DNA of 34,403 nucleotides from Deltaproteobacteria bacterium RBG_16_64_85 (GTDB taxonomy: Bacteria > Desulfobacterota > Deferrimicrobia > Deferrimicrobiales > Deferrimicrobiaceae), in assembly GCA_001798885.1 (NCBI GenBank), contig MGQW01000055.1, positions 1-34,403 of the forward strand, written 5' to 3'. Under the pieces are notes generated by a model. That model worked only from the letters and a program-made list of their open reading frames with translations, was not told the DNA's origin and searched no databases. Shown piece by piece: positions 29,504-34,320 of this stretch. Numbering within the stretch: the stretch's first letter is position 1; each line of letters starts with the position of its first letter. A program made the position numbers and the translations under genes.

Positions 29504-29514
29504 ACGTTAACGGT

Positions 29515-29536
29515 GCGGGGGGGCGCGCCCCCCCGC
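29515..29536. repeat. Perfect 22-nt G/C palindrome
   Basis: A run of seven G and a central GGCGCGCC form a perfect 22-nt palindrome just after the DUF6448 stop. As RNA it could fold into a very stable hairpin with a tiny loop. No T-run follows (next bases GGTCGATCC), so it is not a standard intrinsic terminator; it could slow transcription or protect the upstream mRNA end. Confidence 0.6.
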
Positions 29537-29614
29537 GGTCGATCCGGTAGACGGCCGCTTCTCCGTTCGATGGGGGCGGCCACGGAATTCGAACTCGATC
29601 CCCGGAGGTATCCC

Positions 29615-30619
29615 ATGCGCTACCTGATCCTGGGAAGCGGCCCGGCCGGAATCGCCGCCGCCAAAGCTATCCGCAAGGCGGAGAAGGACGCGGAAATCGT
29701 CATCGCAACGGAGGATCCCGACGTCCCGTATCTGAGGCCCCTCCTGCCCGACTTCATCGCCGGAGACATCACGCTCGCCGCCCTGTCCGACCCGCAGGCG
29801 GAGGATCTTGCCTTGAACGGAATCGAGGTCCGCAAGGGAAAGCGCGCCCGAAAGGTGGACGCGGACGGGAGAAAGGTGTTCTTCGATGACGGGACCGAGG
29901 AGGCGTACGACTTCCTGCTCGTTGCCACGGGAGGGAAACCGGTGCTGCCGACCCCGCTCGACCGGCACCCGGAGGCGGTCATTCCGTTCGATTCCTTGAG
30001 CGATACGAAGAGGATCCGGGAGCGTGCGGCAGGGCCCGGCCCCATCGTCGTGTACGGGCCGGGGTATGTGGGGATCGAGACGTGCCGGGCTCTGGCGCGA
30101 CTGGGAAGGAAGGTGGTGTGGATCAAGCCGGCTCTCCCCCGGTTCGGCTACCCGATCTCGGGAGAGTTCGAGGCGAGCGTCCTCGACCAGGTCCGCAGCC
30201 GGGGGGTCCGTATCCAGGAGGGGGACGATATCGCCTCCATCCGCGAGATCGACGATGGCGCATTCGAGATCCGGGACCTGAGCGGGCAGGAGATCCGCTG
30301 CTCGATGATCGTGGCGGCCACAGAGCGGCTCCCTGCGGTGGCTTTCCTGAAAGGAAGCGGGGTGAAGGTTGGAACCGGGGTTGTCGTGGACGACCGACTG
30401 CGGACCAGTGCACCGTACATTTATGCGGCGGGAGACTGTGCGGAGCTGGTTGACGAGAAGACCGGCGAGGTCCGGATCAACTTCGGCTGGCGCAGCGCCA
30501 TCCGGCAGGGGCAGCTGGCCGGCGAGAACATGGCCGGCGGCGGAAAGCTCTACATCCGGAATCGGCAGGATTACTTTTGGCTCCTCTTCGGCTCTTCGCT
30601 CCTCGACCGCACGAGGTGA
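29615..30619 (+). CDS. FAD-dependent NAD(P)H oxidoreductase (rubredoxin reductase/NirB-like)
   Basis: A 334-residue flavoprotein of the two-dinucleotide-binding-domain family. The FAD motif GSGPAGIAAAKAI is at residues 6-18, followed by YLRPLLPDFIAGD. The NAD(P)H motif YGPGYVGIETCRAL is at about 145-158 and the second FAD contact YIYAAGDCAEL at about 269-279. This pattern fits NADH:rubredoxin, nitric-oxide reductase or NirB-N-terminal-like reductases, which pass electrons to a small redox partner. None of rubredoxin, flavorubredoxin or NirD is beside it. The ATG at 29615 follows GGAGGTATCCC. Its TGA overlaps the GTG of the cytochrome fusion. Confidence 0.88.
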   Translation: MRYLILGSGPAGIAAAKAIRKAEKDAEIVIATEDPDVPYLRPLLPDFIAGDITLAALSDPQAEDLALNGIEVRKGKRARKVDADGRKVFFDDGTEEAYDFLLVATGGKPVLPTPLDRHPEAVIPFDSLSDTKRIRERAAGPGPIVVYGPGYVGIETCRALARLGRKVVWIKPALPRFGYPISGEFEASVLDQVRSRGVRIQEGDDIASIREIDDGAFEIRDLSGQEIRCSMIVAATERLPAVAFLKGSGVKVGTGVVVDDRLRTSAPYIYAAGDCAELVDEKTGEVRINFGWRSAIRQGQLAGENMAGGGKLYIRNRQDYFWLLFGSSLLDRTR

Positions 30620-31551
30620 CCCGCAGGAGGCCGGTGCGGAGAGGGAAAGCTCTCCTTGCGGCGCTGGCCGTCCTCCTCCCGGCCCTGCTGTTTCCGGTCC
30701 GGGGATCCGGCACGGAGGAATACGCCGTGCGAACCGGAAAACCGTGCATCGCCTGCCACTTGAACCCGGCGGGCGGGGGAGATCTGACCGCGGAGGGGGT
30801 GGCGTTCCGGAAGGAGATGCGCTCTGCCGGCGGATCCGCGCAAAGGGGGGGCGGTTTGCGGATGGTCAGGTTCTTCGCCGGCCTGGTCCACCTCGTCACG
30901 GGGGTCCTGTGGTTCGGGACGATCCTTTATGTGCACTTACTCCTGAAGCCGGCGTACGCCGCGAAGGGACTCCCCCGGGGAGAGCTGCTGGTCGGCTGGA
31001 TCTCGATCGTTCTCATGGCTGTCACGGGGGTCATCCTCACGGCCTTCCGGATTTCCTCCCTGGAGGCTCTCTTCCATACGAGGTTCGGAGTTCTCCTCAC
31101 GGCCAAGATCGCCCTCTACCTTGTCATGGTGACAACGGCCGTCCTCGTGACCTTCGTCATCGGCCCCCGCCTGAAGAGGAGGCAGCAGACCGTCGACCAG
31201 CGGAAAAAGGACATGACCGCGGACGAGATCTCCCTGTTCGACGGGAGGGAAGGGAGGCCCGCCTATTTCGCCTTCCAGGGCAGGATCTACGACGCCACAG
31301 GCAGCGGGTTGTGGAAGAAGGGGAGTCACGTCGGCAAGCACCAGGCAGGGTTCGATCTGTCCGACGCACTGAAGCTGGCGCCCCACGGAGAAGACAAGAT
31401 CGCATCGCTGCCTTTCGTCGGCCGTCTCCTGGAAACGGGGGAGGCAAGCAAGAAGCCCTTTCACGTGAGGGGTTTCTACTTCATGGCTTACCTAAACCTG
31501 GGCCTGGTTTTTTGCGTCCTGCTGATCATATCCCTGTGGCGCTGGTGGTGA
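30616..31551 (+). CDS. Membrane cytochrome fusion: c-type heme, CopD-like membrane unit and b5-like domain
   Basis: A 311-residue exported membrane protein of unusual build. The signal-type hydrophobic stretch (LLAALAVLLPALLFP) is followed by a c-type heme site C44-I-A-C47-H48 in the CHLNPAGGG context. Three membrane helices (about 86-110, 126-146, 157-183) resemble CopD-type membrane cytochrome units. A cytochrome b5/steroid-binding-like domain spans about 204-272, with candidate heme ligands H242 (GKHQAGFD) and H257 (APHGED). A last helix covers 288-308. It starts with GTG overlapping the reductase stop (GTGA), the start pattern common in this region; GTG at 30634 is the alternative. Coupled translation suggests that it takes electrons from the upstream FAD reductase. 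Confidence 0.75.
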   Translation: MTRRRPVRRGKALLAALAVLLPALLFPVRGSGTEEYAVRTGKPCIACHLNPAGGGDLTAEGVAFRKEMRSAGGSAQRGGGLRMVRFFAGLVHLVTGVLWFGTILYVHLLLKPAYAAKGLPRGELLVGWISIVLMAVTGVILTAFRISSLEALFHTRFGVLLTAKIALYLVMVTTAVLVTFVIGPRLKRRQQTVDQRKKDMTADEISLFDGREGRPAYFAFQGRIYDATGSGLWKKGSHVGKHQAGFDLSDALKLAPHGEDKIASLPFVGRLLETGEASKKPFHVRGFYFMAYLNLGLVFCVLLIISLWRWW

Positions 31552-31576
31552 TCGCCGCGGGCGGGGAGGAGAGTCT

Positions 31577-31975
31577 ATGAGTCCGACGACAATCCGCTTT
31601 CTCAAGGTCGGGATGGCCTATTTCATCCTGGGAACGCTGCTGGGAACCCTGCTGGTCGTGCCGGCCACCCGGGATCTCCTGTACAAGGCGTCCGGGGCGC
31701 AGTGGAGGCTGGCGCACACGCACCTCAACCTCGCCGGCTTCGTCATCATGATCATCTTCGGGATCGCGTATCACATCCTCCCGCGCTTCGCGGGAAAGCC
31801 GCTGCGCAGCGAGGCGTGGGCCTCGGCACACTTCTGGATCGCGGCGTCCGCCACGGCGGGGATGGCCATCGGCTTCATCGTGCCGGCTGCCGCGATCCTG
31901 CTTTGGGCTGGAAGCGTTGCACAGTTTTTCGGCATCGTTCTCGGAGTCGTCAACCTCTGGCTCACGATCCGGTGA
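31577..31975 (+). CDS. Small heme-copper oxidase subunit I-like membrane protein
   Basis: A 132-residue protein with four membrane helices. Helix 2 carries AHTHLNLAGFVIMIIFGIAYHILPRF, with H47, H49 and H66, resembling the heme-ligand helix of cbb3/NorB-type subunit I. The rest of a catalytic subunit I, including the copper-ligand helices, is absent, so it is not an oxidase. It may bind heme or serve as an assembly/electron-transfer unit, as in small NorB/NnrS-like proteins. The ATG at 31577 follows GGGGAGGAGAG, 25 bases after the cytochrome fusion. Confidence 0.75.
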   Translation: MSPTTIRFLKVGMAYFILGTLLGTLLVVPATRDLLYKASGAQWRLAHTHLNLAGFVIMIIFGIAYHILPRFAGKPLRSEAWASAHFWIAASATAGMAIGFIVPAAAILLWAGSVAQFFGIVLGVVNLWLTIR

Positions 31976-32008
31976 CGGCGCCCGGATAAGAAAGGAAGGG
32001 GGTATCCC

Positions 32009-32311
32009 ATGTTTGACGCTCGGAAAGAGGCGGACTTTTCGCCCGACAGGCCCGTGTCCAAGCTTCTGTACGACTCCGACGCGATGCGCGTCGTCGTCTT
32101 CGGACTCCTGCCGGGGCAGGAGATCCCGCCCCACACGGCGCCTTCCCGCGTCGTGCTCCACATGGTGCAGGGGAAAGGCGCTTTTATCACCGGAAATGGC
32201 GAGCAGGCGGCCCAGGCCGGGGCTTTCGTCGTCACGGAACCGAACGAACCACACGGCCTCAAGGCGGTGGAAAAAACCGTCCTGCTGGCCGTCATCGCGC
32301 CCAGGCCGTAA
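32009..32311 (+). CDS. Small cupin-domain protein
   Basis: A 100-residue cupin. The first motif is LPGQEIPPHTAPSRVVLHMVQGKGAF, with metal-type histidines at H42 and H51. The second is AGAFVVTEPNEPHGLKAVEKTVLLAVI with H82. It is likely a metal-binding sensor or accessory protein; the reaction is unknown. The strong ribosome-binding site GGAAGGGGG precedes the ATG at 32009. It lies between the oxidase-like gene and the DUF542 gene in one run of same-strand genes. Confidence 0.85.
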   Translation: MFDARKEADFSPDRPVSKLLYDSDAMRVVVFGLLPGQEIPPHTAPSRVVLHMVQGKGAFITGNGEQAAQAGAFVVTEPNEPHGLKAVEKTVLLAVIAPRP

Positions 32312-33253: not shown

Positions 33254-33330
33254 GACTCTTTCCGGGGCGCATCCCGGCGGAGGCGCCGCTCATCTACTTT
33301 AATAGGTTTTTTTAGGAAAGGAGCCGCCCG

Positions 33331-34320
33331 TTGGACTGGTTTCCGGCGATGATTGCCCGGTACGGCGGTGCGGCGATCTTCCTCGTCAGCTTCCTGGAGA
33401 ATATCGGCCTTCCGTTCCCCGCTTTTCCGTTCCTTATGCTCGGGGGAGCCTTCTCGGTATCGGGGATTGTGTCGTTCCCTCTGGTCGTGGCAGGGGCGGT
33501 GGCGGGGGCGCTGGGAGCGGACATGATCTGGTACGTCGTAGGAAAATGGCGGGGGCGGGGGATCCTCGTGACCCTTTGCCGGATGTCGTTCAACCCGGAT
33601 GTTTGCGTGGAGAGTGCCGTGGACCAGTTCCACCGCCGGAAGACCGCCACGATCCTGTTTGCGAAATTCCTCCCTGGTGTGAACACGATCATGCCCCCGC
33701 TGGCGGGGGTGGCCTCCGTCCCGCCGCACCGTTTTCTCGCCGCCGACCTGATCGGATCGCTGCTCTGGGCCTCGATCGGGGCGGGGCTCGGACGGATCTT
33801 CGGGAAGGAGATCGCCGAGCATGGCAAGGCGCTCCACGAAGGGATGGGATGGATCCTGGTGGGCGGCCTGGCCGCCTACATGGTGTGGAGGATCGCGTAC
33901 CGGTACTACCTGATCCGGCATTACAGAGCCCCCCGGATCGGGGCGGATGAGCTGTACCGGAGGCAGTCGGAGCCGGAACCGCCTCTCGTGCTGGACCTTC
34001 GGCGGGACGACGATTACGAGCGGTCCGAACGGATGATCGAGGGGTCGTATCGTTTGCGGCCGGCGACCTTCCACCGGTTTGCCCATCACCTGCCGGCGGA
34101 CCGGGACCTCGTCTTCTACTGTACCTGACCGGGGGAAGCCACCAGCGCCAGTCTGGCGCGGATCCTGATCAAGCGGGGGATCGACCGGGTGAGCGTCCTC
34201 CACGGCGGCTTCGACGCCTGGCTCGAACTGGGGCTTCCGACCGGACCCAAGGACCGCGAGTGGAAGGTTGGCGAGGCGCCCCCTAACCCTCTTGACGCTG
34301 CGAGGGGGGCGGGATTATAG
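33331..34320 (+). CDS. DedA-rhodanese fusion, probable selenoprotein (in-frame UGA as Sec266)
   Basis: Without the UGA the frame would end at 34128 (265 residues). Read through, it gives 329 residues. The first 200 form a DedA/SNARE-associated membrane protein (FLENIGLPFPAFPFLMLGG, FAKFLPGVNTIMPPLAGV). A short linker leads to a rhodanese domain: VLDLRRDDDYERSERMIEGS, then LVFYCT-U-PGEATSASLARIL, then VSVLHGGFDAWLELGLP, ending at TAG 34318. UGA 34126-34128 falls where homologous DedA-rhodanese proteins, as I recall them, have Cys (YCTCP). A hairpin follows directly (see separate entry). The start is TTG at 33331, with GGAAAGGAG eight bases upstream. A sequencing error or pseudogene remains possible. 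It likely handles sulfur or selenium species at the membrane. Confidence 0.8.
34145..34159 (+). promoter_or_regulatory. SECIS-like hairpin downstream of the UGA
   Basis: GCGCC-AGTCT-GGCGC forms a five-base-pair stem with loop AGUCU (six pairs if A-U closes). Two more G-C pairs are possible with one bulged A. The stem starts 16 nt after the UGA and the loop begins after 21 nt, inside the spacing used by bacterial SECIS elements. The loop has G in its first two positions and resembles the AGGUCU loop of E. coli fdhF. It lies wholly within the coding sequence, as in other bacteria. Confidence 0.7.

Follow-up and report, generated by a model that had tools for sequence, protein, structure and literature searches.

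A DedA-rhodanese gene with an in-frame UGA

The window, by which we mean the whole stretch of 34,403 nucleotides that was analysed, carries a gene at 33331..34320 that, from direct reading and from its homologues, encodes a DedA-rhodanese protein of 329 residues; this gene and the features described within and before it all lie on the forward (+) strand. It has a TTG start and a TAG stop codon that could be read directly (34318..34320), and is preceded, 7 nt 5' of the TTG, by a Shine-Dalgarno-like AGGAAAGGAG that was likewise read directly (33314..33323). The initial annotation had described an in-frame UGA inside a rhodanese after which the frame stays open for 63 codons, and both statements hold: the TGA at 34126..34128 is codon 266 in frame with the TTG at 33331, and 63 codons follow it before the TAG.

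Two Pfam domains are recognised in the read-through protein, a VTT/DedA membrane domain (PF09335) at residues 29-154 (33415..33792), scoring 46 bits against a gathering cut-off of 33.9 bits, and a rhodanese domain (PF00581) at residues 205-299 (33943..34227), scoring 40.1 bits against a cut-off of 22.2 bits, with the latter match running straight across the TGA. An AlphaFold model of the read-through protein, built with 49 natural relatives, has a mean pLDDT of 85 and a pTM of 0.66, and its C-terminal part adopts a rhodanese fold that resembles solved rhodaneses in a structure search (VIA-align Z up to 16.0), the matches being to the rhodanese half only so that the DedA half was barely probed.

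Directly 3' of the gene lies a tRNA gene cut by the contig end (34343-34403; Rfam tRNA, 42 bits), which judged by its anticodon stretch is probably a tRNA-Asn. Upstream, at 29513-32311, are a number of redox genes encoding a pyridine nucleotide-disulfide oxidoreductase, a CopD-like membrane protein, a short COX1-like fragment and a cupin. Apart from one peroxidase-like gene, the gene neighbours of the family have nothing in common across lineages, and no conserved neighbour explains its role. This cytochrome c peroxidase-like gene (L055:4331-5560, and Nitrospira loci such as L061:110-1195) accompanies the DedA-rhodanese gene in 17 further loci, most if not all of them from Nitrospira, and in one Deltaproteobacteria-type MAG. 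The Nitrospira loci have a transporter-like and the peroxidase-like gene in common and the acidobacterial loci a UbiD-like gene, all of these names having been read from sequence.

Conservation of the UGA codon, its hairpin and the decoding machinery

Scanning 84,980 bacterial and archaeal genomes gave 80 loci, and the genome searches together with three plasmids provided 91 non-redundant DedA-rhodanese genes; a single locus ended too early to be read at the column in question. The codon aligned with Sec266 is TGA in 32 genes and TGC or TGT in the remaining 59, with no other codon found. Since two peptide patterns were used to collect the genes, these proportions are not population estimates. 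The homologue alignment proposed in the initial annotation thus returned Cys in every homologue that lacks the TGA. Besides the window gene, 31 non-redundant DedA fusions have the TGA at the identical column, and its presence is accordingly not due to chance. Same-family relatives that reach beyond residue 266 all have one TGA, in the same place (40 genomes including the window's own). Hosts of the TGA form include Deltaproteobacteria-type MAGs (among them CSP1-8), Rokubacteria, Acidobacteria and one betaproteobacterium, and those of the Cys form Nitrospira, Verrucomicrobia, Acidobacteria and Proteobacteria. When the Sec and Cys labels were placed on a tree of 49 proteins at least 4 changes were required, two of them forced by well supported branches, as against 16 for shuffled labels. 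The in-frame sequence 3' of the TGA is conserved as protein among the homologues, and in the closest pair it is the third codon positions that differ most, both before and after the TGA.

A hairpin GCGCC-AGUCU-GGCGC, predicted in the initial annotation to begin 16 nt after the TGA, is located there (34145..34159) and conforms to the bacterial SECIS (bSECIS) model. The constraints of this model, as quoted in PMC13188914, are an apical loop of 3-9 nt with a G within its first two positions followed by G or U, a stem of 4-16 bp, a loop 16-37 nt past the UGA and an MFE of -7.5 or lower. The window hairpin has a 5-nt loop (AGUCU) with G at its second position, a 5-bp stem and a spacing of 21 nt between UGA and loop, and on its own has an energy of -8.7 kcal/mol. 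Rfam gave no match to the window SECIS, and the 45 nt from the TGA, taken from the window alone, fold no more stably than shuffled GC-rich sequence (z = 0.08); the case for the hairpin therefore rests on comparison across genes and not on energy. Of the 40 TGA genes, which include both fused and stand-alone ones, 38 form all five stem pairs, and the loop G is present in all 40. The 32 fused TGA genes form a mean of 4.9 of the 5 pairs compared with 3.1 when synonymous codons are redrawn within each gene, a value that none of 2000 redraws reached. Cys forms average 3.6 pairs, which is also above their own synonymous null, and the stem is therefore due in part to shared ancestry or codon choice. 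Covariation is evident within the alignment, where 98.5% of cells pair and three of the five pairs have changed on both sides (8 cells), giving a score reached by 0 of 500 shuffles.

The genome of origin (2.2 Mb, 99% complete, a draft assembly of 96 contigs) encodes a tRNA-Sec with anticodon TCA (UCA) at 73.9 bits, selA at 570 bits and selB at 295 bits. The initial annotation had asked for selA, selB, selC and selD; selD was recovered in part, its C-terminal portion lying at a contig edge (G000:C32:6-467, L144) and scoring below the full-length cut-off as expected for a cut gene, and nowhere else in the assembly did we find its N-terminal part. Among the 36 genomes reached through the loci, tRNA-Sec was found in 14 of the 18 TGA-form genomes and in 2 of the 18 that carry the Cys form (Fisher p = 1.3e-4); the four TGA-form genomes with no tRNA-Sec match are possibly incomplete MAGs. 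A search of the window's genome with TIGR01553, the profile of formate dehydrogenase alpha, was intended to reveal a second textbook selenoprotein and returned only sub-threshold relatives.

These observations bear on three ways in which the gene might not be a selenoprotein gene. Were the TGA a true stop, as the mechanical ORF list has it in closing the frame at 34128, the product would be a truncated DedA protein followed by only half of the rhodanese, and the remainder a decaying pseudogene. This is very unlikely given that the same TGA is present in 32 distinct fusions from several phyla, that the downstream frame is open and conserved with a Rhodanese profile spanning the TGA, and that differences after the TGA in the closest pair are still commonest at third positions. 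Reading of the TGA as another amino acid such as Trp, or by read-through that is not programmed, would account for the open frame, which taken alone speaks for it, but we regard it as extremely improbable: the homologue column holds Cys and never Trp, selA, selB and tRNA-Sec are present and a covarying bSECIS-like hairpin lies at the expected distance. An error that turned TGC or TGT into TGA is conceivable in a draft of 96 contigs, yet independent assemblies from different studies share the identical TGA together with a SECIS hairpin that is less maintained in the Cys forms, leaving this explanation with a practically negligible probability. All three were rejected.

The proposal of the initial annotation that this is a probable selenoprotein is therefore supported by the Sec/Cys column, the covarying hairpin and the Sec machinery, with each of its suggested checks that was run speaking for it, and the gene almost certainly encodes a real selenoprotein, the exact biochemistry of which we infer. 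Taken as a whole, a reading of the product as a 329-residue inner-membrane selenoprotein with a CxU rhodanese, and with a DedA half that is probably not a flippase, appears to us very likely from comparative sequence evidence. SelB with Sec-tRNA would insert Sec at the UGA, and premature termination would leave a DedA protein with half a rhodanese.

The active-site loop and the DedA half

In the invariant pair C264-x-[U/C]266 residue 266 comes second, Cys264 (34120..34122) and Cys or Sec at 266 both being kept in 49 of 49 proteins. The initial annotation had equated U266 with the catalytic Cys of rhodaneses, and here the outcome depends on the alignment. A gapless alignment from the helix/Gly-Gly end matches U266 to the catalytic Cys65 of E. 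coli GlpE; a profile alignment, which introduces a gap of two residues, puts Cys65 at C264 instead. The match to the classical nucleophile is thus ambiguous. U266 is likely, though not certain, to be the catalytic residue, and both C264 and residue 266 may be involved, with one of them attacking and the other resolving.

Among stand-alone CxU rhodanese relatives from the same phylum, 5 of the 27 read have TGA in place of both loop Cys codons (YUTUP, YUAUP and similar). These U-x-U loci (L148, L150, L151, L152 and L174, with L022 being the same gene as L148) come from several genomes and each has a SECIS hairpin after the second TGA. Such a double-Sec rhodanese is absent from the motif list for the CxU rhodanese family in PMC13188914. 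The five stand-alone relatives fit the view that both loop positions are redox active.

The DedA half was compared with the residues expected of an undecaprenyl-phosphate (UndP) flippase of COG0586, an acidic pair that we take to be E39 and D51 and the basic R130 and R136, all in YqjA numbering. The E39 position, E23 in the window protein, is mostly kept (41 of 49), and Lys is found at the R130 position without exception. At the D51 position only 2 of 49 fusions have D, and at the R136 position none has R or any other basic residue, so that two of the four key residues are missing. R136 and, in the numbering taken here, D51 of YqjA belong to the set of residues reported as essential for flippase function (PMC10127716). 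In addition, all 49 aligned DedA-rhodanese proteins have both C83 (33577..33579) and C92 (33604..33606), which are absent from E. coli YqjA and YghB. With two of the four key residues lost and an invariant Cys pair gained, it is improbable that the DedA half is an ordinary UndP flippase.

It could nevertheless be argued that the protein is a selenoprotein whose DedA half remains an ordinary UndP flippase, with the rhodanese regulating or accompanying it. DedA-rhodanese fusions are listed in COG0586 among putative UndP flippases (PMC10127716), and the kept E23 and the invariant Lys at the R130 position speak in favour of this, yet YqjA and YghB keep both of the residues whose equivalents the fusions have lost, and we consider it rather doubtful.

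Most simply, the protein would be a Cys-Sec rhodanese tethered to the membrane by a DedA domain that has departed from the usual flippase role. An abundance of Arg and Tyr in the linker that follows the last helix makes a cytoplasmic location of the rhodanese probable. In this position it would act on sulfane sulfur or in selenol/disulfide redox reactions, Sec266 serving as the nucleophile and Cys264 as the resolving partner, and the C83/C92 pair could pass electrons or sulfur to and from the CxU site. As a tentative possibility we put forward a DedA half that has been repurposed, no longer flips UndP and works as a membrane chalcogen/redox relay, in which sulfur, selenium or electrons pass between the cytoplasmic C-x-Sec rhodanese and the C83/C92 pair. 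Were such a relay to operate, it would link the handling of sulfane sulfur or of selenium oxyanions to transport.

Comparison with known selenoproteins and DedA proteins

CxU rhodaneses are a catalogued form of selenoprotein (NF041203; PMC9312934, PMC13188914), and DedA-rhodanese fusions are known within COG0586, where their connection to UndP has been called unclear (PMC10127716). In the literature searched, mostly open papers with few subscription ones, we found none that joins selenoprotein, rhodanese and DedA, or selenoprotein and VTT domain, and no protein of the DedA, VTT or PF09335 type is named in a catalogue of prokaryotic selenoproteins from 2026. The novelty suggested in the initial annotation accordingly stands for the DedA fusion, which was not found described as a selenoprotein, and not for selenium in a rhodanese. 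The invariant, fusion-specific Cys pair of the DedA half and its loss of two of the four flippase residues also appear to be new. Selenium had been linked to DedA once before, through selenite resistance in Cupriavidus metallidurans (Ledgham 2005, as cited in PMC10127716 and PMC8679861), by a protein that may or may not be of the fusion type.

With the fusion the bacterial selenoproteome gains a membrane-protein architecture that is widespread in uncultured Acidobacteria, Rokubacteria and Deltaproteobacteria-type MAGs. Gene callers would cut such proteins short at the UGA. The fusion also provides a way into the question of why DedA proteins carry rhodaneses, as the shared Cys pair and the lost flippase residues make a redox or sulfur role testable.

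Among the closest known counterparts are the Cys-type fusions of Burkholderia and Nitrospira ('DedA family protein/thiosulfate sulfurtransferase GlpE'; COG0586 with PF00581), which have the same two domains with Cys exactly at the Sec position but are not selenoproteins and are mostly found in genomes without tRNA-Sec. The C-terminal domain resembles NF041203 (rhodanese_LYCAU, rhodanese-like selenoprotein form 3, CxU) in its C-x-U loop and the E-x-T/S-S motif that follows, and stand-alone relatives of this kind have a related SECIS hairpin with compensatory changes, as does the fusion. The NF041203 profile covers a rhodanese alone (126 positions), whereas the fusion adds a DedA membrane domain; the fusion has the C-x-[U/C] motif and scores 86.6 bits over profile positions 15-126, short of the curated cut-off of 115, and its rhodanese half is on this basis a close relative of NF041203 rather than a member by the cut-off rule. 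TsoB, a rhodanese/DsbD fusion-like selenoprotein (NF045694), is likewise a Sec rhodanese fused to another domain (PMC13188914), but its partner is DsbD-like and its motif UxxxxU, and the present protein scores 26 bits against the NF045694 cut-off of 805 bits. With E. coli GlpE, a single-domain thiosulfate sulfurtransferase, the protein has the rhodanese fold in common (VIA-align Z 13.5 over 107 residues, 2.6 Å), GlpE having the single active-site Cys65 where the fusion has a C-x-U pair. The E. coli UndP flippases YqjA and YghB belong to the same DedA family at 23-25% identity and share the E39 position, but they retain D51 and R136, whereas the fusion has lost both equivalents, gained a Cys pair and added a rhodanese.
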